Source of the DNA: Embleya scabrispora DSM 41855
Lineage (GTDB): Bacteria > Actinomycetota > Actinomycetes > Streptomycetales > Streptomycetaceae
Length of the DNA stretch: 64,000 bases
Assembly (NCBI RefSeq): GCF_000372745.1
Contig: NZ_KB889686.1
Location: forward strand, 62,195 to 126,194
Reading direction: 5' to 3'
The notes beneath the pieces are model-generated. The model saw nothing but the letters and a program-made list of their open reading frames with translations. It made no database searches and was not told where the DNA came from. Below, in pieces: positions 14,353-53,095 of the stretch (position 1 is its first letter; every line of letters starts with the position of its first letter). Made by a program: the position numbers and the translations under genes.

Positions 14353-14358
14353 GCCGGG

Positions 14359-14387
14359 AATGTAGATCGAGTTGCAGTCGCAAACAA
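14359..14387 (-). promoter_or_regulatory. leaderless promoter of secreted protein copy 1
   Basis: Read on the minus strand, TTGTTT and TACATT are 17 bases apart, and the ATG begins 7 bases after TACATT. The box GTTTGCGACTGCAAC (14371-14385) covers the end of the -35 element and the spacer. The sequence from TTGTTT to the ATG is almost identical to the promoter of the paralogue at 54771. Confidence 0.65.
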
Positions 14388-14534
14388 GAGATTCGCTAGT
14401 AGAAATCTTGGCGCAGCCGCCGATGCCCCCATTTGTTCCGATTGATCAGCTTGCCGCCCGTATGAGCAGCGCATTCGCGACCACGCGGTGCCCACCCGGC
14501 CCGCGCAGGCCCACCATCCGACGACCCGACTGTC

Positions 14535-14549
14535 GTTGCAGTTGCAAAC
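14535..14549. promoter_or_regulatory. GTTTGCAAnTGCAAC operator box
   Basis: Minus-strand GTTTGCAACTGCAAC. It differs by one or two bases from the boxes at 14371, 53096 and 54736. It lies 183 bases upstream of the leftward gene and 347 bases upstream of the secretion operon, so its target is not clear. Confidence 0.5.
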
Positions 14550-14839
14550 GTCCGGTCGGTGCCGGCGAGGACGCGACCCGTTCGCCGCATCGCGCACATT
14601 CACTGTGCACATCGAAACTCGTATTCGCCGGGACGGCACTTTGCCAGTGCAATGTGTAACCGGAAAATCGAATCGTCGGCCGCTCGTGCTCTTGTACTCT
14701 TGCCGCAGGAATCCGATGCGACCGGACCGGTCTCCGGAGCCGAACCAGGGCGAATGATCGGCGCGATCGAGATATCACCCATCCAAGGTGCAGTGGCGTA
14801 CACCTGCGTGCGACCGTCCGGAAGGCGGGCACGTTCGAG

Positions 14840-14859
14840 TCGCATGAATTCACATGCGA
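14840..14859. promoter_or_regulatory. inverted repeat before the secretion operon
   Basis: TCGCATG, six bases, CATGCGA: a perfect 7-base inverted repeat in AT-rich DNA, 36 bases upstream of the ATG at 14896. Its place suggests an operator at the promoter or transcription start of the operon. Confidence 0.5.
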
Positions 14860-14895
14860 TAAATAGCCGATCCAAGAGTTGAGGCTGGAGGTGCG

Positions 14896-15516
14896 ATGAG
14901 CAAACCGACGGTAACCAATCCGTGGATTACCGCCACCGTCACCGAAGTGCCCGAAGTCTTGGACCCGCAGCCGGCACCGTCGGCCACCATGCTGCCGACT
15001 CGGCCCCGGCTCGGAGCGGTGCTGCCTCCGCACGACGGTGGTCTACCGATTCGACACCTTCACCCGAACGAACAGGCGCCGTGGTGGTGGCTGGGCTGTC
15101 ATGGGGGTGCCGGCGTCGGCATGTTGAGCGCCACGTTCCCCGACGGTCGGGACGCGGATCGGCACTGGCCGGTCCCCGGTGACGGCACGTCGACGAGCGT
15201 CCTGCTCGTCGCCCGCACCAACGTCCCGGGTCTGCGGGCGGCGCAGACGGCCGCTCGGCAGTGGGCCTCGGGAGGCGTGCCGCAGGTCCGGTTGCTGGGC
15301 CTGGTGGCGGTCGCCGACGCGCCCGGCACGCTGCCCAAACCGTTGCGCGATCTGGTGAAGCTGGTGGCCGGGGCCTTTCCCCGCACCTGGGCCGTCCCAT
15401 GGATCGAACCGTGGAGATTCGGCGAAACCCCTCCGATCGCCGAACTTCCGAAACCGCTGACCCGGCTGGCCGGAGATCTAAGCCACGTTGTTGCGAGAAA
15501 CCGAGGCTCCTGGTGA
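14896..15516 (+). CDS. DUF6668-like protein, first gene of the type IV-like operon
   Basis: A 206-residue cytoplasmic protein. Residues 65-80 (WWWLGCHGGAGVGMLS) form a Gly-rich turn where P-loop proteins have GGxGKS, followed by strands VLLVARTNVPGLRAA and LLGLVAVADAPG. This resembles the MinD/ParA-like DUF6668 family, which accompanies SCO6880-type clusters in actinomycetes. The lysine of the P-loop is absent, so ATP use is doubtful. The C-terminal part (LKLVAGAFPRTWAVPWIEPWRFG) also fits. The family assignment is from memory of its pattern. The start has a GGAGG site 4 bases upstream. The next gene overlaps by 4 bases (GTGA), which marks the beginning of a coupled operon. Confidence 0.65.
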   Translation: MSKPTVTNPWITATVTEVPEVLDPQPAPSATMLPTRPRLGAVLPPHDGGLPIRHLHPNEQAPWWWLGCHGGAGVGMLSATFPDGRDADRHWPVPGDGTSTSVLLVARTNVPGLRAAQTAARQWASGGVPQVRLLGLVAVADAPGTLPKPLRDLVKLVAGAFPRTWAVPWIEPWRFGETPPIAELPKPLTRLAGDLSHVVARNRGSW

Positions 15517-15839
15517 TATCTACTGTGTTCGCTGCGATCAACGGAATACAGGCGTGGGGAGACAATAAATCTCCGTCACCACCGCCCCCCGGGCCGTCCA
15601 TGCCGAAGCCCAAGACTTTCACGCCGGACTCCAGTCTCACCGACGGCATCGCGAAGGTTGCCGGCGTGGTGTCCTACGGAATCCTCGCCTTCTCGTTCCT
15701 GGTCGCCCTGGTATGCACGGGCATGATTTGGAAGGCGCACAAGGACGGCGGGCAGGCGTCCTTCGTCGGACTCGGCATGGCCATGCTCACGGTGATTGTT
15801 TCCGGCAGCCTGGCCACCATCTTCAACTGGGTGACCTGA
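15513..15839 (+). CDS. small two-helix membrane protein, pilin-like (VirB2/TrbC-type)
   Basis: A 108-residue protein with a Pro/Ser-rich stretch (residues 20-34), then two transmembrane helices (about 47-72 and 80-104) separated by a short basic loop (KAHKDGG). This size and two-helix layout, and its place early in a type IV-like operon, fit a VirB2/TrbC-type subunit. Sequence identity to known pilins cannot be judged by eye. The GTG at 15513 overlaps the upstream stop, with GAGG 7 bases before it. A later ATG at 15600 would also keep both helices. Confidence 0.6.
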   Translation: MISTVFAAINGIQAWGDNKSPSPPPPGPSMPKPKTFTPDSSLTDGIAKVAGVVSYGILAFSFLVALVCTGMIWKAHKDGGQASFVGLGMAMLTVIVSGSLATIFNWVT

Positions 15840-15895
15840 CCCGCGAACCCGTCCCATTTTGACCGTGATTCGCGGCCTCATCCGGAGTAGAGCGC

Positions 15896-16690
15896 ATGGC
15901 CTGGTTGAGAAAGGAACAGTCGGCATCGAGCGGATACGACGATGAAGGCAGCCGTTTCACACAGCCCGGCTTCATCGCATCCGCGCTTGTCATCCTGTTC
16001 GTCGTCCTCAGTGCCGTCTATCTCGCCGTGGCGGGCAACGACGGAAAGACCCGATCCGCCCCGCCTTCCGCGGCGCCCAACGTCGCCCCGGTGACTCTGG
16101 CTCCCATCCCGGACTCCGTGTCCGCCGATGCGAACGAGTGTCCCTTCACGCCGGTGACGGATGTGACCCGCCCGACGCAACCCCCTCGGGATGTCGCCTG
16201 GCAGTCGTTCCGCACGGTACTGCTGCCGGCCTCTTCGACGGCCGGGCCCATGGTCACCCAGGGCGACGTGGCCCGCTGCTACCAACAGACCCCCACCGGC
16301 GCCCTGTTGGCGACCGCGCAGATCACCACCCGGTACGCCCTGGCGGAGAACTGGCTCCGAGTGGTCGCCGAGCAGGTTCTGCCCGGGCCGAGTGCGGACG
16401 CCTATTCGCTTCCGCGCATCGAACGGGAGTTGACCCGCGGCGCCCCGCGACCACCGGAGCCCGGGAGCATGTCGCAGATCGCCGGTTTCAAGTTCGTCAC
16501 CTACAGCTTCCAATCCGCTTCGCTGGAAATCGCGCGCCGCACGCCGGACGGCAAGTTGCAGGCGTTCGTGCACACGGTCGTCTGGACGCACGGCGACTGG
16601 AAGTTGGAGCTCCAGCCGGACGGCGCCGATGCGCCGATAGGAAGAAACCTGATCTCGCTGGAGGGGTTCATTCCCTGGGGGGGCTCTTAA
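15896..16690 (+). CDS. bitopic membrane protein, VirB8/TcpC-like
   Basis: This 264-residue protein has a short cytoplasmic head, one transmembrane helix (about 27-46), a Pro/Ala/Ser linker and an exported domain of about 180 residues. That topology is the one of VirB8/TcpC components, which form the inner-membrane ring of type IV secretion systems and have an NTF2-like outer domain. The domain has a pattern of short strands (FVTYSFQSASLEIARRT, FVHTVVWTHGDWKLEL) compatible with an NTF2-like sheet. The two Cys near residues 82 and 127 may form a disulfide. It lies 56 bases after the pilin-like gene and 3 bases before the next one. The assignment rests on topology and context. Confidence 0.6.
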   Translation: MAWLRKEQSASSGYDDEGSRFTQPGFIASALVILFVVLSAVYLAVAGNDGKTRSAPPSAAPNVAPVTLAPIPDSVSADANECPFTPVTDVTRPTQPPRDVAWQSFRTVLLPASSTAGPMVTQGDVARCYQQTPTGALLATAQITTRYALAENWLRVVAEQVLPGPSADAYSLPRIERELTRGAPRPPEPGSMSQIAGFKFVTYSFQSASLEIARRTPDGKLQAFVHTVVWTHGDWKLELQPDGADAPIGRNLISLEGFIPWGGS

Positions 16691-16693
16691 AAC

Positions 16694-18397
16694 GTGGAGC
16701 GGAAAACATGGCGGGTCACGCGGCCTCGGGCCGCCCACCGCCCGACCGGTCGCAGGGCCTTCTTGATCACGGCGCGGGCAGCCGTGCTCCTCGGCTTCGT
16801 GCTGTCCTTCCTCGTCCTGCAAAGCGGTCACCCCAGCATGGCCGTGGATAAATATGACAAATCTTGCGTCTGGTTTCCGGACAATGCCGCGGGATCGAAG
16901 TGGACCTTCTACTGCCCGGGTGAAGATTCCTCCGCAAAGGACGAAACCGGCTCGTGGAACGGTTTCCAGCTCATCGGCGGCGACACGGCGAAGGCCAAGG
17001 AAGATCTGGATAAATGGCGCAAGAACGAACTCAACCTCACCGGTAAGGCATTGGAGGCGGCCGGAGGTCTCGGCAACGAGCCCAACACGCTGGAGGAGCC
17101 CCAGAACCGATCCTTCATGCTGGACGGCGCTCAGAAGGCCCAGAGCCCGTGTGTCCTGATGGACGGAAAGCACGGCGGGGCCAACGAGAAGCGTGACGTC
17201 AAGTGCGTCGAGGTCCGGGAAATGCTGGAGAAGAAGCAGCACCCGTGCACAATGGCACCGCCCCAATCGCGCCCGTTGTGCATCCAGAACCACCTGTCCT
17301 GGTCCGACTACGCCAAACCGGCTCCCGGCGACCTGCCGTCGTGCGACACCACCTCGAAGACCTCGGTCTGCCCCGACAACAATGTGGTCGCGCAAAACGC
17401 GAAGGGTGAGGACAGCAAGTTCCTGAACGAACCCATCACGTTCATTCGCGACCAGAGCAAGAGCGCGGTGCGCACGACGTTGTTGTGGTGGATCAAGGCG
17501 CCGGATCCCTTGATCAGCGAAACCGACAAGACGGACTGCGACGACGGCACCGGCAAGTACACGGACCGCACGAAACCGTATCCGTGCAGCAGGAACACCA
17601 CCGACTTCCTCACCCGGCACACGAACCCGTTCACCTACTTCCTCGCACTGGCCTGCGTCATATTCGCCGGCTTCAAGCTCGCATACACGCGCGACGCGAG
17701 CTCGGTGAAGGATGTCATCAAGGGAACGATCACTCTCGTCCTGGTCACCGGCAGTGCGATCTTCCTGGTCAATGTCGCCGTCCGGGCCTGTCAGGGATTC
17801 ACCGACTGGATCGTCGTCCGCGGACTCAGTCCGGAGACCAACGGCGCGGCCAACACGGACCGCGCACTCCAGGAGGCCGCGGACAGATTCGCGCAGAGTC
17901 TGGAGGGGTTCGATTCCATCGTGCTCTTCCTCCTGGCCGCGTTGATCATCATCTCGTCCAACATGGTCCAGTACTTCTACATGACGGCCCGCTTGTTCTT
18001 CGTGATCGTGCTGACCGGGACACTCCCACTGACCGCCGCGGCCACCTCGACCGCGGCCGGCAGAAGTCTGTTCCAGCGGCACATCTCGTATCTGGTCGCG
18101 TTCATCTTCGTGAAGCCCGCATCGATGATCATCTTTGTCGCCGGCGCCCGACTCTGGGCACCGCCGGGATATCAGGGTCTGGACTACAGCGATCAGTTCC
18201 GCGGCTTGTTCGTGCTCGCGCTGGTCACCTTGGTCGGTCCCGCGACCGTCCGGGTCGTCTTCGCCATGACCGGCCCGGCGGCCGGATCCAACGCGGCGAA
18301 CATCGGTGCGGCGGGCGCCGTCCTGACAGTCGGCGCGAGGAGCGTCGGAGCCGCATCGAACCTGGTGCGACACCGGAACCAAGGGGGCAACAACTGA
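16694..18397 (+). CDS. polytopic membrane protein, VirB6/TrbL-like, with Cys-rich ectodomain
   Basis: A 567-residue protein. A first hydrophobic helix (residues 27-44) is followed by a large exported region (about 50-315) with many Cys (DKSCVWFP, WTFYCPGED, SPCVLMD, HPCTM, PLCIQN). Five or six transmembrane helices then run from about residue 315 to 540 (FTYFLALACVIFAGFKLAY to LFVLALVTLVGPATVRVVF). The C-terminal helix bundle matches the VirB6/TrbL role as the inner-membrane channel of type IV systems. The ectodomain shares its Cys pattern with the membrane protein at 21524. The GTG at 16694 follows a G-rich stretch, 3 bases after the previous stop. The next gene overlaps by one base. Confidence 0.7.
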   Translation: MERKTWRVTRPRAAHRPTGRRAFLITARAAVLLGFVLSFLVLQSGHPSMAVDKYDKSCVWFPDNAAGSKWTFYCPGEDSSAKDETGSWNGFQLIGGDTAKAKEDLDKWRKNELNLTGKALEAAGGLGNEPNTLEEPQNRSFMLDGAQKAQSPCVLMDGKHGGANEKRDVKCVEVREMLEKKQHPCTMAPPQSRPLCIQNHLSWSDYAKPAPGDLPSCDTTSKTSVCPDNNVVAQNAKGEDSKFLNEPITFIRDQSKSAVRTTLLWWIKAPDPLISETDKTDCDDGTGKYTDRTKPYPCSRNTTDFLTRHTNPFTYFLALACVIFAGFKLAYTRDASSVKDVIKGTITLVLVTGSAIFLVNVAVRACQGFTDWIVVRGLSPETNGAANTDRALQEAADRFAQSLEGFDSIVLFLLAALIIISSNMVQYFYMTARLFFVIVLTGTLPLTAAATSTAAGRSLFQRHISYLVAFIFVKPASMIIFVAGARLWAPPGYQGLDYSDQFRGLFVLALVTLVGPATVRVVFAMTGPAAGSNAANIGAAGAVLTVGARSVGAASNLVRHRNQGGNN

Positions 18398-19896
18398 TGA
18401 GTAACGTCACCAGCCACGACGTTCGCACATATGGAAACTGGCAGAAGCCGATCTCGCCCGGGCTGGGCCGCCTCGGCTTCATCGGCACCGTGGCCGGCAT
18501 CGGTGGTCTGCTGCTGGTCATCCTGGTGATGATGATCTCGTTCGTCGCCGCCCTCGTCGTGGGCGTGCTCATCGCCCTCGCCCTGCTGCCGATGGTCATG
18601 CGCGACAAGCACGGTCGCAACGGCTTCCAATGGGCCGCCGCCCGGGTCTCCTGGAGCGCGGGCAAGGCCCAGGGAGCCCATCTGTACCGATCGGGCCCGC
18701 TCGGTCGGCTCCTGCTCGGCACCTGCAAGCTGCCCGGCCTCGCCGCCGCCTCCAAGCTCTTCGAGGCGCACGACGCGTACGGCCGACCGTTCGCCCTCGT
18801 CACCATTCCCGCGACAAATCACCACACCGTCGTCCTCACCTGCAGCGCCGACGGCGCCTCCCTCGTCGACCCCGACCAGGTGGACACGTGGGTCGCCTAC
18901 TGGGGCCTGTGGCTGTCCCAGATCGGCCACGAGCCCGGTCTCGTGGCGGCCTCGGTCACGATCGAGGCCGCGCCCGACACGGGCGAGCGGTTGCGCGGCG
19001 AAATCGACGGCAACGTGGTCGCCGGGGCGCCTTCGCTCGCCAAGCAGGTGCTGGAGGAAGTGAGCGAGGCCTACGGGCAGGGATCGGCACAGATGTCGAC
19101 GCGGGTGGCACTCACCTACTCGGGGGCCGCGCGAGGAGCGCGGGCACGTCGCAACGCCGAGGAGATGGCGGTCGATCTGGGCATGCGGCTCCCCGGACTG
19201 TGCAGCAGCCTGCAGATGACCGGGGCCGGCCCGGCCCGGCCGATGACGGGTCGGGAGTTGACCGAACTGGTCCGGGTCGCCTACGACCCGAGCGTGGCCA
19301 CCTTCATCGATCAGGCCCGTTCCGAGCGTACGAGCGATCTGCGTTGGGACGACGCCGGCCCGACGGCCACCGAGGAATCGTGGGGCCACTACCGGCACGA
19401 CAGTGCCTTCTCGGTCACGTGGGCGATGTCGGAGGCTCCTCGCGGCGAGGTCTATTCGAGTGTCCTGACTCGCCTGGTGTCTCCGCACCCGGACATCATG
19501 CGCAAGCGGGTGACCCTGTTGTACAGGCCGCACGATCCCGCGACGTCGGCTCGACTGGTGGAACGCGACCGCAAGGACGCCATGTTCAAGGCGAAGCAGT
19601 CCAAGGTCGCCAATGCCCGCGACTCGATCGCGGTCCAGGCCGCCGAGCAGGCCGCCCGCGAAGAGGCGACCGGCGCGGGACTCGTGCGGTTCGCCATGCT
19701 GATCACCGCCACCGTCAACGACGCCGCCGACATCAAACTCGCGGCGTCCGCGGTGGACAACCTCACCGCCTCGTCCCGGATCCTCGTGCGGCGCGTCTAC
19801 GGCTCACAGGCCTCCGCGTTCGCGGCGGCGCTCCCGTTGGGGCTGGTCCTGCCCAACCACCTCAAGCTCCCACAGGCTCTGCGTGAAGCGGCGTAA
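18397..19896 (+). CDS. SCO6880-family membrane-associated component
   Basis: A 499-residue protein. Two close transmembrane helices (about residues 26-68) resemble the PrgI/VirB3-like head found in SCO6880-type proteins. A long cytoplasmic region follows, like the N-terminal, non-ATPase part of VirB4/TraC. It has no Walker A motif. Segments such as WVAYWGLWLSQIGHEPGLVAASVTIE and TWAMSEAPRGEVYSSVLTRLVSPHPDI are typical of the family as I know it. It probably docks the separate VirB4-like ATPase encoded next. The start (ATG in TGATG) overlaps the upstream stop by one base, with AAGGGGG before it. Confidence 0.75.
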   Translation: MSNVTSHDVRTYGNWQKPISPGLGRLGFIGTVAGIGGLLLVILVMMISFVAALVVGVLIALALLPMVMRDKHGRNGFQWAAARVSWSAGKAQGAHLYRSGPLGRLLLGTCKLPGLAAASKLFEAHDAYGRPFALVTIPATNHHTVVLTCSADGASLVDPDQVDTWVAYWGLWLSQIGHEPGLVAASVTIEAAPDTGERLRGEIDGNVVAGAPSLAKQVLEEVSEAYGQGSAQMSTRVALTYSGAARGARARRNAEEMAVDLGMRLPGLCSSLQMTGAGPARPMTGRELTELVRVAYDPSVATFIDQARSERTSDLRWDDAGPTATEESWGHYRHDSAFSVTWAMSEAPRGEVYSSVLTRLVSPHPDIMRKRVTLLYRPHDPATSARLVERDRKDAMFKAKQSKVANARDSIAVQAAEQAAREEATGAGLVRFAMLITATVNDAADIKLAASAVDNLTASSRILVRRVYGSQASAFAAALPLGLVLPNHLKLPQALREAA

Positions 19897-19944
19897 CCCG
19901 TCGGGTCCCCGGAACACGCGCTTCGGACAAGGGAGTCGAGCCCG

Positions 19945-21522
19945 TTGACGAACAACACTTCGGTCGATCACAGCACCGCCTTCGACGCATCGGCGTCCTT
20001 CGCCGCATCGCCCGCGCCCGACAAGGCGCGCAAACGTTGGGGACGCAAGTCGAAGCAGTCCGGCGACAGCGCCGGCAAGCAACCTCGGCCGCAGATTCGA
20101 CGGCCGGGGCCCAGGGGTTTTCGCGGCTGGGGTCAGGGCGCACCCGCGTACGTCGAGACCCCGCCGGAATGGCGGGGCACGACGGTGCAGGTCTGCGGCC
20201 TCTGGCCGTTCGGCGCGGGCTCGGGCACACCCGGCGTCGGCGTACCGCTGGGCCGGTCCCTGGCCGGTGGCGCCACGGTGTGCTGCGACCCGATCAGTTG
20301 GTTCACGCGTGCCAATCTGTTGCTGAACCCCAGTGAATTCGTGCTCGGCAAGCCGGGATTGGGCAAGTCCACGATCGTGCGCAGGCAGGCTCTGGGGCTC
20401 GCCGGGTACGGCGTCAATCCGGTCGTCTTCGGTGACCTCAAGCCCGACTACGTGGATCTGATCGAAGCCCTCGACGGTCAGGTCATCACGCTGGGGCGCG
20501 GGCGCGGCTATCTCAACGTGCTCGACCCCGGAGAGGTGACCGAGGCGGCCGCACGGCTCCCGCTCAAGGCCCGGCAGGCCCTGCTGGCGGAGGCGCACGG
20601 CAGGCGGTTGAACGCGGTGGCCTCGCTGGTCACCGTCCTGCGCGGGCAGCCGCCGACGGACCGCGAGGAAAGCATCCTCAACGCCGCGTTGACGGTCCTG
20701 CACGACCGACACGACGGCGTTCCGGTCATGGCGGATCTGGTGCGGCTGTTGCGGGACGCGCCCGACCCGGTCCGTGCGGTGGCACTCGATCGCGGTGATC
20801 TCGCCCGCTACCGGGACATCACCGAGGGCCTGGAGGCGTCCCTGGTCGGTCTGCTCGGCGGCGGGCGGCTGGGCGAACTCTTCGCGCACCCCACCACCGA
20901 GGCCATGCACCACGACCGCCCGGTGTGTTTCGACGTCAGCAGCATCGACGACTCCGAGGGCCAACTTCAGGCCGCGGCCCTGCTGGCCTGCTGGAGCTAC
21001 GGGTTCGGCGCCATCTCGGTGGCCCAGGCCCTGGCCGACGCCGGACTGGAGCCGCAGCGGCACTACTTCGTGATCCTGGACGAGCTGTGGCGTGTCCTGC
21101 GCGCCGGACGTGGGCTGGTGGACCGGGTCGACGCATTGACCCGACTCAACCGCCAACGCGGCGTCGGCATGGCGATGATCACGCACACCATGTCGGACCT
21201 GTTGGCGCTGCCCGCCGAAGAGGACCGGATGAAGGCCAAGGGCTTCGTCGAGCGCGCCGGCATGGTCATCTGCGGCGGTCTGCCGGCCGCGGAGATGCCG
21301 CAGTTGACCGAGGTCGTGAGCATGACGGAGTCCGAGCAGCAGATCATCACCGACTGGTCCACTCCCCCCTCCTGGGACAGCGAAATGGGCACCGACTCGG
21401 CGCCTCCCGGGCGTGGGAAGTTCATGGTCAAGGTGGGCGGGCGTCCCGGCATTCCCGTGCAGGTCGAGCTCACACCGTCCGAGCTGCGCATCAACGACAC
21501 GAACCGCAAATGGACGACGTGA
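19945..21522 (+). CDS. VirB4/TraC-like ATPase
   Basis: A 525-residue P-loop ATPase of the type IV secretion VirB4/TraC class, which powers assembly of the apparatus. Walker A is GKPGLGKST at residues 135-143. Walker B is FVILDELWRVL near 375-385. A motif-like THTMSDLLAL follows near 411. The basic N-terminal 60 residues look disordered. The usual N-terminal VirB4 half is missing and is probably supplied by the SCO6880-like protein encoded just upstream. The start is TTG at 19945 after AAGGGAG; no ATG or GTG is better placed. The next gene begins two bases after the stop. Confidence 0.85.
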   Translation: MTNNTSVDHSTAFDASASFAASPAPDKARKRWGRKSKQSGDSAGKQPRPQIRRPGPRGFRGWGQGAPAYVETPPEWRGTTVQVCGLWPFGAGSGTPGVGVPLGRSLAGGATVCCDPISWFTRANLLLNPSEFVLGKPGLGKSTIVRRQALGLAGYGVNPVVFGDLKPDYVDLIEALDGQVITLGRGRGYLNVLDPGEVTEAAARLPLKARQALLAEAHGRRLNAVASLVTVLRGQPPTDREESILNAALTVLHDRHDGVPVMADLVRLLRDAPDPVRAVALDRGDLARYRDITEGLEASLVGLLGGGRLGELFAHPTTEAMHHDRPVCFDVSSIDDSEGQLQAAALLACWSYGFGAISVAQALADAGLEPQRHYFVILDELWRVLRAGRGLVDRVDALTRLNRQRGVGMAMITHTMSDLLALPAEEDRMKAKGFVERAGMVICGGLPAAEMPQLTEVVSMTESEQQIITDWSTPPSWDSEMGTDSAPPGRGKFMVKVGGRPGIPVQVELTPSELRINDTNRKWTT

Positions 21523-21523
21523 C

Positions 21524-22369
21524 ATGACGAGGCGAGATACCGGCTTCGGTCGAACGCGGGCGAGCGCAGTCCCGGGTCGGATTCTGCTGGTCGTCGCAGC
21601 CGCGATCCTCATTCTCCTGACGGGCGGAACTCCTGCGGGAGCGGACGAATCGGATTATCCACCGGCCAATTGCCTCCAGGTGCCTCGCGATCTCCAGGGC
21701 GTCGTCTTCAAGGTCTATTGTCCGGGAAAGGCAGCGCGCGAATATTCCAACGACGTAAGCGGTTGCGACGGAGGCCCCAGTAGTCCTTCGTATGTCAATC
21801 GGGACGGCGTTCCGGACCTGACGAATTTCTGTAAATACAATGTTCGCAAACAACTGAAGGACTGGCTGCTCAACGACAAGAACAAGACCGCCGGGCACGT
21901 GGATCCGGGCAATATCCGGGACAATCCGTGCGATGCCCTCCCCGATAAATACAAAACCGGATGCCCGGACATCCGCAAGTCCAAGTTCCAGGACCTGTCC
22001 ACCCACCCGTGCATGCTGAAGAACGAATCGGGCGCCGATTACCTGGAACCCGAACAGCAGAGCAAGTGCCTGAGCGACAACTCATGGTTTCAGAACGGAA
22101 TCAAATCACCACCCCGCGGTGACAAGAACTCGTACAACACCCAGGACTACTCGGGCCCGCCCGAGGTCATGGACCCGCTCATGGAGGGGGCCGGCTGGGT
22201 GGCCTGGGCCTGCCTGGTGGGCTGCTTCTTCAGCGCGTTCTGGTGTCTCTTCCAATTCGTCGGCGCACGCCGCAGCGGCGGGGAAATGGCGCACGGGGTG
22301 GTCTATGTGTTCATCGGAACCCTGATCGTCGGCAGCGCATCCAGCATCACCCAGTTCGTCCTCATCTAG
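21524..22369 (+). CDS. Cys-rich exported membrane protein
   Basis: A 281-residue protein with a signal peptide or signal anchor (GRILLVVAAAILILLTGG, ending near residue 38), a Cys-rich exported domain (about 39-215) and two transmembrane helices near the C-terminus (about 221-244 and 256-280). The pattern NCLQVP to FKVYCPGKA, with later THPCML and SKCLSD, parallels the ectodomain of the VirB6-like protein at 16694. Both may interact on the outer face of the membrane. The function is not known. The ATG at 21524 begins directly after the ATPase stop, so the two are very likely co-translated. Confidence 0.7.
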   Translation: MTRRDTGFGRTRASAVPGRILLVVAAAILILLTGGTPAGADESDYPPANCLQVPRDLQGVVFKVYCPGKAAREYSNDVSGCDGGPSSPSYVNRDGVPDLTNFCKYNVRKQLKDWLLNDKNKTAGHVDPGNIRDNPCDALPDKYKTGCPDIRKSKFQDLSTHPCMLKNESGADYLEPEQQSKCLSDNSWFQNGIKSPPRGDKNSYNTQDYSGPPEVMDPLMEGAGWVAWACLVGCFFSAFWCLFQFVGARRSGGEMAHGVVYVFIGTLIVGSASSITQFVLI

Positions 22370-22421
22370 GGATGTTCCCGCCCCGGCAGGCCCCACGAAT
22401 GCCAGAAAGGAGGTTCTCCCC

Positions 22422-24173
22422 GTGAGTGCCACCAACAAAAAGCGCGGCCCCAATCCGTACGGCGACATGTACATGATCCTCGCCGTCGTGGGCGTGCTCA
22501 TGGCCGTCACCGGGGCGATGTGGGTCGGCGCCATGGCCACCCGCGCCGAGACGGACCTCAAACCACCGCCTCCTCCCGTCATCCTGCTCGGCCTGGTGCT
22601 GGACAAGTACACCTGGCCGGGGACCGGCGCCACCGTCATCGCCGTCGCGCTGTGCGTGGTCATGGCCGCGGCGGCCGGCGGCGCGACCTACCTCGTGATC
22701 GTCCACCAACGTGGCCTGCTCGACATCGATCGGGCGATTCCCTACCTGGCCAAGCCCCGCGATCTCCGTGCCTCCACCACCAAGGGCGTGCGGGCGAAGG
22801 CGGACGAGTTCGGTCTTGATCCGACCGAAGTGCCCGGACTCTACATCGGCAAGACCGTGCGCCACGGCGTCGACGTGTGGGGCTCGTGGGAGGACATGCA
22901 CGTCGACATCTGGGGGCCGCGTACCGGGAAGACGACATCGAGGGCGATTCCCAACATCGTCGCGGCGCCCGGTGCGGTGGTCGTCACCTCGAACAAGCGC
23001 GACATCGTCGACGCGACACGCGGCTCGCGGGCCCGGCGCGGCAAGGTGTGGGTGTTCGACCCGCAGAACCAGGCCGGCGCCAAACCCACGTGGTACTGGG
23101 ATCCGCTGTCCTACGTGGGCAGCAGCATCACGCTGGCGGTCAAGATGGCGGGCCGGTTCTCGTCCATCAACCGACCCGCCCACTCGCGCAGCGACGCGTA
23201 CTTCGAGCCGGCGGCGGAAGACCTGATCGCGCATCTGTTGCTGGCCGCGTCCATCAGCGGGAAGCCCATCTCACAGATCTTCACCTGGCTCACCCGCCCC
23301 ACCGACGACACCCCCGAGCGCATTCTGCGCGAGCACGGCCACATCCCCTCGGCGGACGCGGTGGACTCGGTGATCACCGCGCCGGATCGGCAACGGGCCG
23401 GTGTCTACGGCACGGCCGCCCAGATCGTCTCCTTCCTCGTCGCGCCGACCGTGACCGCGTGGATCGAACCGGGGAACGAGCCGAACCGTCCGGCCTTCGA
23501 CTACAAGGCATTCGTCCGCGGTGGCGACACGCTCTACATGCTGTCCGAAGAGACGAACAAGATGGCCGCGCCCCTGGTGACGGCCTTCACCGCGGCGATC
23601 GCCGAGGAGGCCGAGAACACCGGACGAGACTGTCCGGGCGGCCGGTTGCCGATCCCGATGCTCTTCGTGCTGGACGAGGCGGCGAACGTCTGCCCGTGGA
23701 AGGCACTGCCGGACAAGTACTCGCACTTCGGTTCACGCGGCATCGTGATGATGACCATGCTCCAGTCCTGGGCCCAGGGAGCCGCGGCTTGGGGCGACGG
23801 AGGAATGGCGAAGCTGTGGGGCGCGGCCAACGTGCGTGTCTACGGAGGCGGTGTCCTGGACACCAAATTCCTCGGCGACCTCTCGGCCGCCTCCGGCATC
23901 TTCGAGCCGGGCACCACCAGTTACACCCGCAAGTCGACCGACTTCTTCGAGAGCAACGTGAACAAGGCGTCGCGCTCCGAGGCCGTGCTCGACGTGGCGG
24001 ACCTGACGTCGATGCCGCGCGGTCGTGCCTTCGTGCAATTCAGCGGGACGAAACCGGCGCTGATCCGCACGATTCCCTGGTGGGAGACCGAGTACGCCGA
24101 GGAGATTCGGCAGTCGATCGCCGCCTTCGACCCGAGCGCCCAGGCGCCGATGACACTCAAGAAGGTCTCATGA
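22422..24173 (+). CDS. VirD4/TraG-type coupling ATPase
   Basis: A 583-residue type IV coupling protein, the ATPase that brings substrates to the channel. Two N-terminal transmembrane helices (about 18-40 and 68-94) precede the motor domain. Walker A is GPRTGKTT at residues 165-172, with VVVTSNKRDIVDATR after it. Walker B is MLFVLDEAANV near residue 415. The tail has the normal VirD4 features. A classic AGAAAGGAGG ribosome-binding site precedes the GTG at 22422. No relaxase gene is near, so the cargo may be protein rather than DNA. The next gene overlaps by 4 bases (ATGA). Confidence 0.88.
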   Translation: MSATNKKRGPNPYGDMYMILAVVGVLMAVTGAMWVGAMATRAETDLKPPPPPVILLGLVLDKYTWPGTGATVIAVALCVVMAAAAGGATYLVIVHQRGLLDIDRAIPYLAKPRDLRASTTKGVRAKADEFGLDPTEVPGLYIGKTVRHGVDVWGSWEDMHVDIWGPRTGKTTSRAIPNIVAAPGAVVVTSNKRDIVDATRGSRARRGKVWVFDPQNQAGAKPTWYWDPLSYVGSSITLAVKMAGRFSSINRPAHSRSDAYFEPAAEDLIAHLLLAASISGKPISQIFTWLTRPTDDTPERILREHGHIPSADAVDSVITAPDRQRAGVYGTAAQIVSFLVAPTVTAWIEPGNEPNRPAFDYKAFVRGGDTLYMLSEETNKMAAPLVTAFTAAIAEEAENTGRDCPGGRLPIPMLFVLDEAANVCPWKALPDKYSHFGSRGIVMMTMLQSWAQGAAAWGDGGMAKLWGAANVRVYGGGVLDTKFLGDLSAASGIFEPGTTSYTRKSTDFFESNVNKASRSEAVLDVADLTSMPRGRAFVQFSGTKPALIRTIPWWETEYAEEIRQSIAAFDPSAQAPMTLKKVS

Positions 24174-24724
24174 GCGATCCTCGCGATGACGAACCGCCGG
24201 CCCACCAAGGCGCTGCGGGCGAGCCGGCACTCGAGACCGAGCCGGAGCCCGAGAAGCTGTTCTTTCCGTCGGTGGACGTGTTCGTCACCGAGTATCTGGC
24301 ACCGTTGTTGCGGCGCCGGCTCAACCGGTCGTTGGCCGTGTGGTGTCCGAGTTGGTGGGCGCACCCGGAAGCCGTCGCCCGATTGACCAGCCTGTGGCGG
24401 GCCTTCGAATACCTGCGCCGGGACCCGGCCCTGGGCGTTTCGATCTGGTGGACCCACCATGCCGATCCGCACCTGCGCGCCCTCATGGATCCCGATGTCG
24501 GGCCGTTCGCGGTGTGCGACCCCAGGGACGGTCATGCGAGCAGCCCGTTGGGGCCCCTGCCGCTGACGCCCGTTCCGCCCGGGCTGCTGGACCACCCCGG
24601 ATTCCGGGTCGAGGAATCGATCTTCGAGAACATGCGGGCGAACGAAGCCGAGCACGCCGCCGCGCGGGACCGGCCCACCGGTTATCCCAAGGACAAGGTT
24701 CTGAACAAGAACATGGGTTTCTGA
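24170..24724 (+). CDS. DUF4913-like protein
   Basis: A 184-residue soluble protein with an acidic N-terminus (residues 1-30) and a core (about 32-140) with VFVTEYLAPLLRRRL, WCPSWWAHPEAVARLTSLWRAFE and WWTHHADPHLRALMDP. The WCPxWWxHPEAxxRLxxLWRAxE pattern is the DUF4913 signature common in actinomycete conjugative and SCO6880-type clusters. Its role is not known; proximity to the coupling ATPase suggests a cytoplasmic adaptor. It is translationally coupled to that ATPase. Confidence 0.75.
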   Translation: MSDPRDDEPPAHQGAAGEPALETEPEPEKLFFPSVDVFVTEYLAPLLRRRLNRSLAVWCPSWWAHPEAVARLTSLWRAFEYLRRDPALGVSIWWTHHADPHLRALMDPDVGPFAVCDPRDGHASSPLGPLPLTPVPPGLLDHPGFRVEESIFENMRANEAEHAAARDRPTGYPKDKVLNKNMGF

Positions 24725-24746
24725 TTCTCGAGGAGAGGCGGCGGTC

Positions 24747-24926
24747 ATGGCCGACGAAACCGGTGTCGAGGGCATCGCGGAAGCGTTCTACAACCTCATC
24801 GGGGAGACGATGCAAAGGGCGGAGCAAACGCTCGACGTGGTCGGCGCCCAGGTGCAGCTCGGTGATTTCCTGCCGGGCTTGGATATTGCCGCCAAGGTGG
24901 CCAAGGGAGTGGCGACCGGGCGATAG
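24747..24926 (+). CDS. small 59-residue amphipathic protein
   Basis: A short gene with a strong GAGGAGAGG ribosome-binding site 8 bases before its ATG. The product (MADETGVEGIAEAFYNLIGE and on, ending KVAKGVATGR) has no Cys and no signal peptide. It looks like one or two amphipathic helices broken by a Leu/Pro/Gly turn. It lies between the DUF4913-like gene and the peptidoglycan hydrolase in the same direction. It could be a small structural part, a chaperone or a secreted substrate of the system; nothing in the sequence decides this. Confidence 0.65.
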   Translation: MADETGVEGIAEAFYNLIGETMQRAEQTLDVVGAQVQLGDFLPGLDIAAKVAKGVATGR

Positions 24927-24974
24927 GCGGGTCGATCGGACGGTCACGTCGATGCACAGGGGCGGGGAAAGGCG

Positions 24975-26147
24975 ATGCAGAAAAAGAAGAAGAAGCTCGG
25001 GCTGCTGCTGATCCTTCCTTCCGGTGGGTTCCTGGTCTTCGTCATCGTGATGACGGCTCTCATAGCCGCCACCAATCCGCTCAACCTGCTGAGGAATCCA
25101 CTGGCCAACGCCGCATTCAACGCGAACGCCGTTCCCCCTCAATTCAGGTCGTTCGTGGCGGAGACCGGAAACGTGTGCCCCGAGGTGACCCCCACGGTCG
25201 TCGCCGCGCAGATCGATCAGGAGAGCGGCTGGCGGCCGTCCATCGTGAGCCCGGCGGGCGCGGTCGGTCTGAGTCAGTTCATGCCCGGGACGTGGGCGAC
25301 GTGGGGCGGAGGAGCCGCACAAACCGATCCGAGAGCCAACATCATGGCTCAGGAGCGCTACGACTGCCATCTCGCCGGCGAGGTCCGGAAGATGCAGGCA
25401 GGCAAGTACGGCACATGCACGATGGTGATGCACGGGAAGGTCTACACCAAGCCCGGGCCGAAGGCCGGTGAGATGCGCGGCGAGGTCTTCGACCTGATGC
25501 TCGCGTCGTACAACGCGGGTCCCGGTGCGGTCTGCTACTACCGGGGTATTCCGCCGTGGGACGAGACCGAGGGTTACGTCCCCGGGATCAAGAACATCAT
25601 GAGCAAGTATTCGGCGCCGCAGATCGTGAGCGCCGTCTACTCGGGCGACAACAAGACACTCGGTGGACGCGCCGTCAACCTCGCCAAAGCATCGATCGGC
25701 AAGTATCCGTACTCCTGGGGCGGTGGGAGCTTCACCGGACCGAGCGAGGGCTTCGCCCAGGGGGCCGGAATCGTGGGCTTCGACTGCTCCGGCTTCGTGC
25801 GCTATCTCTTCCACCAAGCCTCCGGCGGGGCGTTGAAGCTTCCGCGCACCGCCGGCGAACAGGCCGGCGTGGGCCAACGGATCCTTTCCTCGGTCGGCCC
25901 GCCGAGCAAAGCCGAGGAGGCCAAGATGCAGCCCGGAGACGTCATCTTCTTCACCACTTCGGGCGGCCGTATCGGCACCGGAGCCACCCACCACACCGCC
26001 TTGTATGTCGGGAACGGGATGACCATCAATGCGCTCAAGACCGGCACGATCATCAGAGAGGACCCCTTCTCCCGATTCCTCGTGCGCGGAGCACAGGACG
26101 TGTGGACGGTCCAGCGCTATGCCGTCGCCACGACCGCTCAGGCCTGA
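24975..26147 (+). CDS. VirB1-like lytic transglycosylase with NlpC/P60 endopeptidase domain
   Basis: A 390-residue two-domain peptidoglycan hydrolase. A basic start (QKKKKK) and a transmembrane helix (about 9-31) anchor it outside the cell. The first domain is SLT-type: catalytic Glu83 in QIDQESGW, then AGAVGLSQFMPGTWATWG and SYNAGPGAV. The second is NlpC/P60: catalytic Cys271 in GFDCSGFVRYLF and His339/340 in THHTALYVG. It should cut both glycan strands and peptide stems to open the wall for the secretion apparatus, as VirB1/TcpG-type proteins do. The ATG at 24975 follows GGCGGGGAAAGG. The stop is one base before the next ATG. Confidence 0.9.
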   Translation: MQKKKKKLGLLLILPSGGFLVFVIVMTALIAATNPLNLLRNPLANAAFNANAVPPQFRSFVAETGNVCPEVTPTVVAAQIDQESGWRPSIVSPAGAVGLSQFMPGTWATWGGGAAQTDPRANIMAQERYDCHLAGEVRKMQAGKYGTCTMVMHGKVYTKPGPKAGEMRGEVFDLMLASYNAGPGAVCYYRGIPPWDETEGYVPGIKNIMSKYSAPQIVSAVYSGDNKTLGGRAVNLAKASIGKYPYSWGGGSFTGPSEGFAQGAGIVGFDCSGFVRYLFHQASGGALKLPRTAGEQAGVGQRILSSVGPPSKAEEAKMQPGDVIFFTTSGGRIGTGATHHTALYVGNGMTINALKTGTIIREDPFSRFLVRGAQDVWTVQRYAVATTAQA

Positions 26148-26148
26148 G

Positions 26149-26808
26149 ATGCGCGGACCCCTCGCGGTGCTCGCGTCGCTGACGATCGCCGCCACACTCG
26201 CCGGATGCGGCCTGGGCGACGGCAATGGCCGGGAAAGCGCTCGACCCTCGGGGCAGCCGGCCCCCACCCGAGGGCCCGTCACGACGGCCGAGGCGATTCC
26301 GACCTACCCGCAACCCTCCGTCGCCACCTCCCCGTTGCCGGCGCTGGTCGGACGAACGGGTACCCCCGCCGCCTCGCTTCCGGCGCCGGGCCAGGTCGAC
26401 GGGCGCGACGCGACCGCCGTCGCCCGAGCCGTGGCGCAGACGATGTGGACGGTGGACACCACCATCGACGCGACCCGGTGGGACGCCGCTCAACGCGCCG
26501 CGCCGTTCCTGACGCCGCGGTACGCGGAAAGTCTGCGGCTGAGTCCGCAGGTCGCCGCGCCGGGAGAAACCTGGTCGACCTGGGCCGAGCACAAATCCGT
26601 CACCGCCGTGGCCGCCGCGTCCGCCGACGACCTGGGCAAGCCGGAGGACACGGAGACCTCGGCCTTCCACGCGTTCACCCTGACCGTCACGCCCACGGGC
26701 CGGGACGGCTGGCGCGGACCGGCCCTGACCACCACCGTGTTCGTCTCGTTGGAGCGTGCTTCGGCCGCTCAGCCGTGGCGGGTGTCCTCGGTCCGGGCCG
26801 CCGACTGA
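26149..26808 (+). CDS. secreted lipoprotein of the type IV-like operon
   Basis: A 219-residue lipoprotein: hydrophobic signal peptide and LAGC lipobox with Cys20, a Pro/Ser/Thr-rich linker to about residue 75, then a domain of about 140 residues. The domain (AVARAVAQTMWTVDTTIDATRWDAAQRAAPFLTP and later ALTTTVFVSLERA) resembles an NTF2-like fold as seen in TcpC/VirB8-related proteins. It starts one base after the hydrolase stop, so it is part of the operon. It probably sits on the outer face of the membrane in or near the channel. Confidence 0.75.
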   Translation: MRGPLAVLASLTIAATLAGCGLGDGNGRESARPSGQPAPTRGPVTTAEAIPTYPQPSVATSPLPALVGRTGTPAASLPAPGQVDGRDATAVARAVAQTMWTVDTTIDATRWDAAQRAAPFLTPRYAESLRLSPQVAAPGETWSTWAEHKSVTAVAAASADDLGKPEDTETSAFHAFTLTVTPTGRDGWRGPALTTTVFVSLERASAAQPWRVSSVRAAD

Positions 26809-26990
26809 AACCGAGTGGGATGCCCCAGCACGGTGCGCCCGTGCACAGCCGTGGCGCGACGTCGGTATCGGCTTGCCCAGTCGAGGGCCGCGAAGGTTGT
26901 CGGCCCGAAATCGACCGCCTAGCGTCGGCAGGGAATTCGACGGCGCCCCGGCGCCGATCTCGGACATCAAGCACAGCGCAGGAGTACACC

Positions 26991-28556
26991 TTGGCCTCTC
27001 GGCGTTTCCTGAGACGCCGCCGGGCGCTGTCGACGCTCGCCTCGATGCTTGTGACCCTCGGCGTGGCAACCGGCTGCACGGCGATGGGCGGTGGGCAACC
27101 GTCGGCCGGGGAACGCAATCCCCTGGCGGCACCGCCGGTGGCCGCCTCCGCGCTGTCGGTCCCGCCGACCTTCGACGGCAAGCGGGGTTGGCGCAACGAC
27201 GTGACCAACCGCGCCTATGCGCTCGCGCCGCGCGCGGGCTTCCTGCTCGATGTGTACGCCGGAAGCGACGAGTTCGGGGCACAGCCGGAGTCCTCGGCGA
27301 GCGGCGCGCCCGGCAGCGCCGAGAACGCGCCGGCCCCGGTGTCCACGGCGGACCCCACGGCCGCGAAGCAGAAGCCGAACGGAACCGTCCTGATCGCCCG
27401 CGGCGCGGACAAGGGCACCGTGGTCTGGTCGTCCACCCCGCTGCGGAAGTTGTCGATCGAACGGGCTCCGCAGTTGCGGGTGATCAACACCGACCAGGGC
27501 GAGTTCGCGGTCCTGGTGCGCTTCGGCGTGGTTCCCGGAAGCGGCCTCGTCCGCTCTCGGCGGCTCACCGTGGTGGACACGTTCCCGGTCGCCTCCTCGG
27601 GCAACACCGTGCCGCCGACGCAACATCTGGAGCGCGAGACCCCCGGCGAATTCGGCGGCTCGGGCATCTCGATCGACGACGGCGGAGTGCTCTTCCTGGG
27701 TGATCGGGTGGAAAACCCCGCGGAGGACTACATCGAGGTCGGACCGGCGACGTTGTGGAATCCGACGACCGGTGCGAGCAGCACCGTGCCGGCGGGAGAG
27801 CGCCGGCGTTCGCAGGTGTGCGAGGAGGACGCCGTCGACGGTTGCACGGTGCGGGACGTGCCCGTCTCCACCATCGGGGCCGGGGTGCTGACCGCCGAGA
27901 CACCGGCCCGCCCCTGGGGCCGATTCGCGCTCGTCGGCGGTTGGAGCAGTTCCCGGATCGGTCCCGACGGACGTACCCGCGGCACGCTGTTGGGCACCCT
28001 GCCGGGGGCGATGCTCGTCGCCTGGGCCGGCCCGGACGGCCAACCCACGCTGTACGCCGTGCACGATCCCGCGTCGGGTGCGGTCCTGTTCTCCGGACGC
28101 TGTTCCGCCCCCGGCGGTGGGGACTTCGACCCGCAGGGGCTGCGTTCGCTCTTCGACGCCGCTCCCGGTGGGCGCTACGTCGTGGCGGGTTCGCTGGCGC
28201 TCGATCTGTCCGCACGCACCCTGACCTGCCTGGCCGGCGACCACGACCATCGTGGCGTCGAGCTGGGCGCGGTGGGTGACGACGGCATCGCCTTCGGCTC
28301 GTTGCTCGCCGACGGCCGGGTCCCCCGGGAGGGCGAAGAGGCGACGCCCGCCAAGGAGCCGGCGCTCGTGCGCGTTGCCGCGGGCGGCATCGATCCGCTT
28401 CCCGCCGGAACCGCGATTCCGGACCGGCTCACCGCTTCGGGCGCGGGGTTGTTCACGCTGTCCGTCCAAAGCGAGGAGGACCCCACCGCGTCGACGGCGA
28501 TCGCGATGTATCCGGCCGCACCGGGTTCGCCCACGAGCGCCGCGCCATCGAGGTGA
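26991..28556 (+). CDS. secreted lipoprotein, possible beta-propeller
   Basis: A 521-residue protein with a very basic start (SRRFLRRRRA), a hydrophobic core and VATGC, placing the lipid Cys at residue 29. The twin arginines could also direct Tat export. The mature part is beta-rich with repeating strands (GTVVWSS, VLFLGDRVEN, MLVAWAGPDGQPTLYAVHD, GGRYVVAGSLALDLSARTLTCL) that suggest a propeller-like domain; no named family was recognised. The start is TTG at 26991, supported by GCAGGAG 6 bases upstream. It is separated by 182 bases from the type IV-like operon and runs in the same direction. A hairpin follows the stop. Confidence 0.7.
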   Translation: MASRRFLRRRRALSTLASMLVTLGVATGCTAMGGGQPSAGERNPLAAPPVAASALSVPPTFDGKRGWRNDVTNRAYALAPRAGFLLDVYAGSDEFGAQPESSASGAPGSAENAPAPVSTADPTAAKQKPNGTVLIARGADKGTVVWSSTPLRKLSIERAPQLRVINTDQGEFAVLVRFGVVPGSGLVRSRRLTVVDTFPVASSGNTVPPTQHLERETPGEFGGSGISIDDGGVLFLGDRVENPAEDYIEVGPATLWNPTTGASSTVPAGERRRSQVCEEDAVDGCTVRDVPVSTIGAGVLTAETPARPWGRFALVGGWSSSRIGPDGRTRGTLLGTLPGAMLVAWAGPDGQPTLYAVHDPASGAVLFSGRCSAPGGGDFDPQGLRSLFDAAPGGRYVVAGSLALDLSARTLTCLAGDHDHRGVELGAVGDDGIAFGSLLADGRVPREGEEATPAKEPALVRVAAGGIDPLPAGTAIPDRLTASGAGLFTLSVQSEEDPTASTAIAMYPAAPGSPTSAAPSR

Positions 28557-28581
28557 ACCCTTTCCCACCCACCGCACCGGC

Positions 28582-28605
28582 GGCCGGTCCCCTCGGGAAC
28601 CGGCC
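28582..28605 (+). terminator. weak hairpin after the lipoprotein gene
   Basis: GGCCGGT pairs with ACCGGCC, and CCC with GGG, with one bulged A and a 3-base loop. It is 26 bases after the stop and 114 bases before the next start. It may attenuate rather than end transcription. Confidence 0.5.
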
Positions 28606-28718
28606 TGCACGTCTTTCGCAACATCCGAAGAACGCGTCGACGCTCACGCCGGCCGACTTCGGCCGCGTACTCGCTACCCAAGGATCGTGGACCGGTCCGT
28701 GTTCCAGGGAGAAGCCCC

Positions 28719-31349: not shown

Positions 31350-31380
31350 TCCTTCGGCTTCACCCATCGTGTGTTCACTC

Positions 31381-31413
31381 GCGGGTGGCGGGCCTCATCC
31401 TCCCGCCACCCGC
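31381..31413 (+). terminator. intercistronic hairpin before the MoxR gene
   Basis: A perfect 12-base stem (GCGGGTGGCGGG with CCCGCCACCCGC) and a 9-base loop. It lies 31 bases after the propeller gene stop and 22 bases before the MoxR start. It may reduce read-through or protect the upstream message. Confidence 0.6.
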
Positions 31414-31435
31414 CGTTCCACCCGTCTGGAGCACC

Positions 31436-37973: not shown

Positions 37974-37996
37974 CCGGCCCGGCGCCCCGCGTCGCC

Positions 37997-39676: not shown

Positions 39677-39812
39677 TACCGCCCCCGTTCGTCCGGCCGA
39701 TCACGGAGCGGGCATGCGTCGGGTGGACCGTCCGGGGTCAATGTGTTTCCCGAAGCCATGACCCGCGCCGTATAAGGCACATTGCTCGGGATTTTTTACC
39801 GCCGGCGGAACT

Positions 39813-48907: not shown

Positions 48908-48932
48908 TCGCGCGGCGACCCGACCCGATTCC

Positions 48933-48956: not shown

Positions 48957-48966
48957 GCCGGGCCGA

Positions 48967-53083: not shown

Positions 53084-53095
53084 TGCGAACCGCAC

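Follow-up and report, generated by a model that had tools for sequence, protein, structure and literature searches.

A SCO6880-type type IV secretion locus with an adjoining MoxR module in Embleya scabrispora DSM 41855 and its possible cargo

What is carried by a conjugation-type secretion machine that has no relaxase gene beside it? The question is raised by a type IV secretion system (T4SS) locus of Embleya scabrispora DSM 41855, lying in a stretch of 64,000 nucleotides (the window) that is part of a 352-kb contig, C125; the genome comprises 11.39 Mb in 190 contigs. According to our own gene calls, the locus is a unidirectional run of plus-strand genes from 14896 to 37973, bounded by the opposite-strand genes W10 and W30. 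W numbers denote our gene calls in the window (W11-W22 being the T4SS part), and the genes of the run are called A to R: the T4SS core (A-K), the MoxR chain (L-Q) and R (Table 1). An earlier note, written from the sequence alone, had described a one-direction T4SS-like operon at 14896-26808; this description is borne out, and the run continues beyond it to 37973. The operon is a real SCO6880-type actinobacterial T4SS core, the MoxR chain belongs with it, and A to R (14.9-38.0 kb) most likely form one genetic unit. With moderate confidence, we regard the locus as a domesticated conjugation-type T4SS on the Embleya chromosome to which an envelope module has been added. Its cargo is probably not the DNA of the locus itself, moved by the standard relaxase route.

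Composition of the T4SS core

Of the components of a monoderm T4SS, VirB4, VirD4 and the VirB1 wall enzyme are present as E together with F, as H and as J, respectively. Among the parts named in the earlier note, SCO6880, VirD4 and VirB1 are backed by profile matches, and VirB4 by a match of F below the cut-off and by the structure model of E; VirB2, VirB6 and VirB8 are weak assignments, to which we return below. The motifs QESGW, DCSGF and HHTALY of J are present. F matches the VirB4-like CD1110 model NF045971 at 1.4e-9 and 36.8 bits, far under the 325-bit equivalog cut-off, and the match falls in the C-terminal half of that VirB4-type model. The structure model of E (28 sequences, pLDDT 73, pTM 0.69; best Foldseek E-value 1.7e-10) superposes through residues 113-488 on residues 15-379 of TrwK/VirB4 (Z 21.8, 329 residues, 3.6 A), and two helices at residues 28-67 precede this VirB4 N-domain fold. 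Since E matches the N-domain of VirB4 and F the later half of VirB4-type models, SCO6880 (E) reads in the model as a VirB4 N-domain behind a membrane hairpin, and E and F together as a VirB4 split over two genes; the two helices could be a counterpart of VirB3. This suggests a role for the SCO6880 family. Sequence searches of the PDB with profiles of E and C, and with F alone, returned nothing useful.

The E model also matches chains of type VII systems ESX-3/ESX-5, namely 6umm_A (Z 14.2, 6.5 A, 258 residues), 6sgz_D (Z 10.4) and 7b9f_E (Z 10.1, 3.0 A, 161 residues), all of which we take to be EccE. A likeness between EccE and VirB4 is not stated in those literature passages, available in part, that name EccE, VirB4 and type VII. 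Within the window, WXG100 proteins and EccC-type FtsK/SpoIIIE ATPases are absent among the 30 proteins scanned (the 59-aa open reading frame (ORF) at 24747 was unscanned).

In our own reading, A appears P-loop-like but degenerate. No profile match above the cut-off was obtained for B, C, G, K, L, Q and R in Pfam/NCBI-type scans, and PADLOC, run on 10 window proteins, matched 53170-54672 to kinases and, weakly, F and MoxR to ATPases. The many overlaps of 1-4 bases claimed earlier shrink to 2 of 11 junctions inside W11-W22 and two more in the MoxR chain, counts that depend on the chosen starts and would alter with others. Between 14.4 and 29.0 kb, three terminators were found against 7.0 expected from shuffles, so an operon break can be neither claimed nor excluded.

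Table 1. Positions of the genes of the run, its border genes, R- and Q-type paralogues and the conserved DNA block in the window
Feature	Position	Strand	Basis or remark
A, DUF6668 protein	14896..15516	+	PF20373 3.2e-14; first core gene in relatives
B, small membrane protein, VirB2-like position	15513..15839 (gene-caller start 15600)	+	same place in relatives
C, one membrane helix and NTF2-like domain, VirB8-like	15896..16690	+	structure model pLDDT 81
D, polytopic VirB6/TrbL-like protein	16694..18397 (gene-caller start 16763)	+	PF04610
E, SCO6880 family	18397..19896	+	NF042935 (SCO6880_fam) 1e-170; two membrane helices and VirB4 N-domain fold (by model)
F, VirB4 ATPase half	19945..21522	+	Walker A GKPGLGKS at residue 135; NF045971
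G, secreted/membrane protein, fast-changing	21524..22369	+	57-60% identity within Embleya, dS ~1.1
H, VirD4/TraG coupling ATPase	22422..24173	+	PF12696 (TraG-D_C) 6.9e-27, PF02534 2.1e-18, both above cut-off
I, DUF4913 protein	24170..24724	+	PF16259 5.1e-35; next after VirD4 in relatives
Small ORF, 59 aa	24747..24926	+	66-68% identical in two Embleya
J, SLT and NlpC/P60 wall enzyme, VirB1-like	24975..26147	+	NLPC_P60 8.3e-19, SLT 5.9e-10, both above cut-off
K, lipoprotein	26149..26808	+	lipobox read by eye; homologue adjoins J in relatives
L, probable lipoprotein	27045..28556 (true start probably ~26990)	+	no Pfam match; adjoins core in G030, G020a, G001C22
M, membrane-anchored, FN3 domain	28719..31349	+	PF00041 2.1e-11; propeller-like part is our own reading
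N, MoxR AAA+ ATPase	31436..32473	+	PF07726 4.1e-61
O, DUF58 protein	32473..33654	+	PF01882 2.7e-10
P, TgpA membrane transglutaminase	33651..35927	+	PF11992 7.6e-19, PF01841 7.7e-19
Q, Pro-rich, one membrane helix, FN3-like outer part (own reading)	35936..37084	+	paralogue W44
R	37077..37973	+	N-terminal R domain of ~95 residues, then Pro-rich and TPR-like part; alignments
W10, upstream border gene	12994-14229	opposite to run	
W30, PucR-type regulator, downstream border gene	37997-39676	opposite to run	
W36, second R-domain protein	47978..48907	+	presumed member of the system
W43, W44, second R/Q pair	56158..58651	-	presumed members of the system
DNA homology block common to E. hyalina and G002	13004..39686	.	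blastn 76-83% identity; includes W10, W30

Relatives of the locus and the linkage of its two parts

A tree of E and F was reconstructed by a quick method from 73 rows, each of which needed 350 aligned residues of both proteins. Here, G labels denote sampled genomes and L labels fetched loci, G001 being E. hyalina (NBRC 13850) and G002 a further Embleya. Duplicates and near-duplicates (L079, L080, L081, L104, L108, L110 and L113), long branches (L120 and G013C140) and L203, a second stretch of a plasmid already included, were left out. The window belongs to an 11-row clade (aLRT 98), together with two loci of E. hyalina, G002, Yinghuangia soli, five loci of G020 and the linear plasmid CP108401.1. 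The sister group consists of L097, L103, G248 and G140, one of the four with a relaxase. A clade of 13 rows in an earlier 65-row tree had included two Streptomyces loci; because these regroup with G248 and the relaxase-bearing G140 in the 73-row tree, the 11-row clade is used here.

Homologues of E were found on 455 of 72,556 plasmid records, with predicted mobility of 181 non-mobilizable, 147 conjugative and 127 mobilizable, and the eight closest (56.6-60.5% identical) are those of CP108401.1 and of Streptomycetaceae plasmids of 47-106 kb. A phage collection held no E homologue. Among sampled Streptomycetaceae, E matches at 1e-60 or better are patchy (48/297 genomes).

The earlier suggestion that the T4SS and the MoxR chain belong together is supported as far as one locus is concerned, because R is a standard core neighbour in relatives and because several rearrangements have left the MoxR module close to the core. 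R is the last gene of the MoxR chain, yet its domain flanks the core in relatives: in 9 of 11 further loci, and in L097, L103 and L104, R-K-J point away from the core in a divergent arrangement. An alignment search located R domains at 42 places in 18 of 61 genomes: they occur in all 11 genomes with an E at least 45% identical versus 7 of the 50 others (p 8e-8, kinship uncorrected), and within 40 kb of 12 of the 16 cores with such an E. The R domain marks these loci and, as far as alignments can tell, ties the MoxR chain to the T4SS core. In Microbacterium (L114) it is fused to a MinD/ParA ATPase; in Kribbella (L131) its fusion partner shows weak PQQ/propeller matches.

As for the module, the propeller-like part of M was found at 22 places in 15 of the 61 genomes searched. 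M lies within 17 kb of 8 of the 10 clade cores in searched genomes (including E. hyalina C22, where M stands ~15 kb from the core and was counted as linked), and with CP108401.1 the module, whole or in part, is near 9 of 11. Meanwhile, none of the 62 rows outside the clade has M, O or P in the fetched DNA, the genomes of six other cores at least 45% identical (G035, G027, G037, G024, G006 and G013) lack M, and 11 further loci are free of M, N, O and P over 10.8-40 kb, with one 25% match to L in G352. The order of the module varies: M-Q precede the core in Yinghuangia and follow it in G020a, are partly inverted in G020b and extend over ~40 kb in E. hyalina C22; in CP108401.1 the core comes after the FN3 protein, DUF58, TgpA, a glutamate-cysteine ligase and MoxR. 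In G020, a single contig, three of four M places adjoin cores (chance 3e-5, with the distance chosen after seeing the data). On the MoxR tree, the sequences of the window, G001C13, G002, G001C22, G020a and G030 form one clade (100/99), and that of G020b groups with stand-alone loci (99/98). Because the G020b MoxR stands apart from the window MoxR clade in this way, the tree suggests that core and module were joined more than once.

The order of genes from W10 to W30 is kept in E. hyalina and G002 (56-95% protein identity), which answers the earlier note's call to look for the 14.9-38.0 kb order elsewhere. Beyond the homology block, one upstream homologue, W04, is similarly placed (58%), and on the downstream side C125:204189 holds a gene with a 78% match to the end of the regions fetched from E. 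hyalina and G002. The chromosome arms are thus related, with rearrangement. In a third Embleya, G003 (1650 contigs, 7% contamination), no E exceeds 26% identity. We tentatively read C125, E. hyalina C13 and G002 C4 as chromosome-arm contigs. A megaplasmid location was considered and set aside, the 20-kb ends of C125, G001:C13 and G002:C4 giving no mutual alignment of at least 100 bp; no terminal inverted repeat was seen at these ends, and parts of G001:C13 and G002:C4 align with each other.

The machine is kept by purifying selection across the three Embleya, and Q and R change fast. Comparison of the window with G001 and G002 by our own NG86 script gave dN/dS values of 0.10 for E and F, 0.17-0.19 for H, 0.11-0.12 for N, 0.12-0.13 for O, 0.22-0.23 for P, 0.41-0.42 for K and 0.37-0.46 for Q.

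Several further observations concern these genes and their relatives. L is propeller-like in our own reading, and Q has a 30% match to a kinase with fn3. The window genome encodes four R domains, three of them inside the window, where a paralogue group at 47978-58651 comprises the R-domain proteins W36 and W43, the Q-like W44, the W10-like W42, the kinase W41 and the regulators W38-W40; W38-W41 and W43 occur together in G002 at ~800 kb, ~100 kb from its T4SS block. A homologue (49%) of W05 (5846-7021) follows the Yinghuangia locus, and the ligase in the CP108401.1 locus is a glutamate-cysteine ligase of PF04107. Copies c, d and e of G020 (L049, L051 and L053) each have a second, shorter E-like protein of 305-330 residues, 29-36% identical, within ~7 kb. 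Two more SCO6880 homologues of the window genome lie on C108 (~80634-82028, L069), among six plus-strand genes with sizes resembling the cmd operon of Streptomyces coelicolor, and on C134 (37968-39398, L066), ~17-23 kb from tyrosine-integrase matches on the same contig. Many of the Streptomyces loci L083-L102 show a different arrangement, with a VirD4 ~50% identical, DUF4913 and NlpC-type neighbours and no recognised VirB4/SCO6880 gene up to 10 kb either side, the exception being L097 with a full core. In Kribbella rubisoli L131 (669-2093, 15009-18140), which carries the R-domain protein with weak propeller matches, the core adjoins an intein-bearing dnaB.

Mobility genes and possible cargo

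No match to the relaxase families PF03432, PF08751, PF13814 or PF03389 was found on the 352-kb contig C125 (other MOB families were unsearched), and none to the tyrosine integrase family PF00589 (serine recombinases were unsearched). Replication genes were absent among 30 window proteins in the Pfam scan, no profile search having been aimed at them. The longest exact direct repeat between the flanks at 11.5-15.0 and 37.8-41.5 kb is 15 bp. The earlier observations that the window has no integrase and no att-like repeat hold for tyrosine integrases, on the whole contig, and for the two flank stretches compared; the claim of no relaxase likewise extends to all of C125 for the four families and fails for the genome, in which relaxase-type proteins are encoded on other contigs. 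A recent integrative element, named in the earlier note among the findings that would speak against its reading, is unsupported by these results, oriT itself being unsearched.

For the relatives, a relaxase is called absent from the fetched DNA on the basis of a single MobP model and a single MobF seed search, and for the window genome on that of Pfam over the whole assembly. A MobP-like relaxase was found in 0 of the 11 rows of the window clade (40-62 kb fetched per locus) versus 20 of the 62 rows outside it; eight Kribbella and ten Arthrobacter-type rows are also without one, most flanks there being 10 kb or less. In total, 21 fetched loci encode MobP-like proteins (the model was built from L114-like MobP proteins), and such proteins occur near the cores of G140, G203 and G126. 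A PF03432 relaxase and MobC adjoin the Microbacterium core L114, and an annotated relaxase and MobC that of a Streptomyces canus plasmid. A TrwC search that covered 48 genomes or records, out of 80 named, gave matches in 26 of them, with positions relative to the loci unmapped. Some 'mobF-like' matches (1e-8 to 1e-10) were not counted, since the protein matched either adjoined MobP relaxases or was 297 aa long and had no Pfam match. In addition, G037:C8 (55,538 bases) has R-domain matches at both contig ends and a MobP relaxase adjoining its core, which suggests a circular element cut within an R gene.

The absence of an adjoining relaxase and the presence of envelope genes suggest that the machine was co-opted for a different transport task. 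We propose that the core A-K, with R, descends from conjugation machines of actinobacterial plasmids or mobile elements, and that the Embleya/Yinghuangia lineage took in the envelope module L-Q with its propeller-like/FN3 surface proteins, MoxR, DUF58 and TgpA. VirD4 (H, with I) would pick the cargo in the cytoplasm, the split VirB4 (E and F), the VirB6-like D and the VirB8-like C would form the membrane channel, and J would open the peptidoglycan, while L, M and Q might be folded, positioned or cross-linked at the exit by MoxR, DUF58 and TgpA. R may be an adaptor at the machine, its domain bearing different C-terminal bodies in different genera. As a first guess the cargo is protein, for which we put the chance a little short of even.

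A number of observations weigh against domestication, or against the parts assigned to the machine. B has no profile match, and its likeness to VirB2 comes solely from two hydrophobic stretches; D matches PF04610 (TrbL/VirB6) at 19.1 bits, under the cut-off of 25.9; and the model of C, compared with TraM of pIP501, gives Z 7.0. Since unrelated generic NTF2 folds score up to 7.9, the identity of C as VirB8 is consistent with its model, not proven. No gene of the module lies in the 40 kb fetched for G020c and G020e, MoxR is missing at G020d although M, O and P are there, and the five core copies of G020 are unlike each other, a plasmid-like trait. R has a dN/dS of 0.67-0.71, a sign of fast change. 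The base composition of 14896-26808, held in the earlier note to be that of the surrounding chromosome, in fact differs from it (GC 66.9% versus 70.9, 71.7 and 71.3% elsewhere; per-gene p=0.0002), and the argument built on it was wrong; because GC3 differs little (0.842 in the T4SS part versus 0.871, p=0.03), amino-acid content may explain much of the low GC.

Other observations of this kind favour a machine that still transfers DNA, either acting in trans on relaxase-bearing plasmids or elements or moving linear replicons end-first in a relaxase-free way, which we consider a substantial possibility, though clearly under even chances. Linear plasmids can transfer end-first, and one member of the window clade resides on the 437-kb linear plasmid CP108401.1, where an integrase and a Tn3 transposase separate the MoxR module from the core. 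The nearest kin outside the clade are machines of plasmids or elements, several with relaxases, and two MobF matches on C144 and Replic_Relax proteins on C42 and C155 of the same genome could serve in trans. SLP2 linear-plasmid transfer genes also resemble the cmd genes, according to the available part of PMC2782261. However, the chromosomal cmd cluster, as reported in the same part, had no effect on transfer of an SLP2-derived plasmid, neither a relaxase of the four families nor a tyrosine integrase was found on the window contig, no MobP-like relaxase was found near any of the 11 clade members in the fetched DNA, and no part in DNA transfer is known for the added MoxR module. A more specific form of protein export seems doubtful: a dedicated Gram-positive exporter, in which the MoxR/DUF58/TgpA module would build an outer part from propeller-like and FN3 proteins and the R domain would be a docking tag bringing bodies (TPR-like, ParA, propeller) or cargo to VirD4. 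We also think it unlikely that the locus is a developmental machine, serving sporulation or chromosome segregation rather than export to other cells, as may be the case for CmdABCDEF, which uses VirB4- and SCO6880-like proteins and whose loss disturbs sporulation in S. coelicolor (PMC2782261, available in part). The six-gene cluster on C108 is a better candidate and may be the cmd orthologue, as judged without S. coelicolor sequences; the window locus has a VirD4, a wall enzyme and the MoxR module, whereas cmd is described as one ATP/GTP-binding and five membrane proteins; and window-type loci are patchy among Streptomycetaceae. Far less probable still is a decaying remnant of an integrated plasmid that stands by chance beside a MoxR operon. 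The lack of a relaxase and integrase on the contig, the lower GC and the several unlike copies in G020 would fit such a remnant, but the core genes are open, the Walker and wall-enzyme motifs are present, dN/dS is low over three Embleya and the linkage to the MoxR module is repeated.

We therefore retain the domesticated T4SS with an added envelope module as the best explanation. The locus offers, in soil actinomycetes, a candidate that is under selection, bears VirD4, has no adjoining relaxase and carries a recurrent extra module, and for these reasons the question of its cargo is testable by gene removal. No literature linking MoxR, type IV secretion and Streptomyces was found, and DUF4913, DUF6668, SCO6881 and SCO6878 are almost unnamed in the literature searched, subscription papers being mostly outside both searches.

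Comparison with known systems

Work other than conjugation has also been suggested for two monoderm systems, the T4SS of Patescibacteria, which lacks a relaxase, and the effector T4SS of the Streptococcus suis 89K island (PMC12102498, PMC12857230); as far as the available parts of these reports go, they differ in belonging to other VirB4 lineages and make no mention of a MoxR module. Two chromosomal clusters of S. coelicolor also have VirB4-, SCO6880- and VirB6-like genes: cmdABCDEF (SCO4126-4131), whose deletion disturbs sporulation and leaves transfer of the SLP2-derived plasmid unchanged, and SCO6871-6884, whose tested mutants lack such a phenotype (PMC2782261). Unlike the window locus, cmd is described in the available text without VirD4 or a MoxR module, a comparison made by description alone.

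Stand-alone loci (L179-L184) share the order M-N-O-P with the window, with MoxR 69-74% identical, and differ in having no T4SS core gene in the 20 kb fetched. One or more neighbours were scanned in four cases, and in three of these they are type VII-like: WXG100 and an fn3 kinase in L180, and FtsK_SpoIIIE in L179 and L182, with neither in L181.

Close parallels to the core are found on plasmids. Those of S. canus (NZ_CP107988.1) and Streptomyces NBC_01717 (NZ_CP109180.1) have the same A-B-C-D-E-F order, followed in S. canus by H-I as well, and their E proteins are 58.9 and 59.4% identical to that of the window; they differ in the relaxase and MobC beside the S. canus core, in the MOBF typing of NBC_01717, and in having no MoxR module in the 30-31 kb fetched. 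The linear plasmid CP108401.1 of Streptomycetaceae NBC_01309 differs in being a linear plasmid and rearranged, with the integrase and Tn3 transposase between the parts; nevertheless, it combines the FN3 protein, DUF58, TgpA and MoxR with the core within 41 kb, and its E and VirD4 are 60.5% and 66.0% identical to those of the window.

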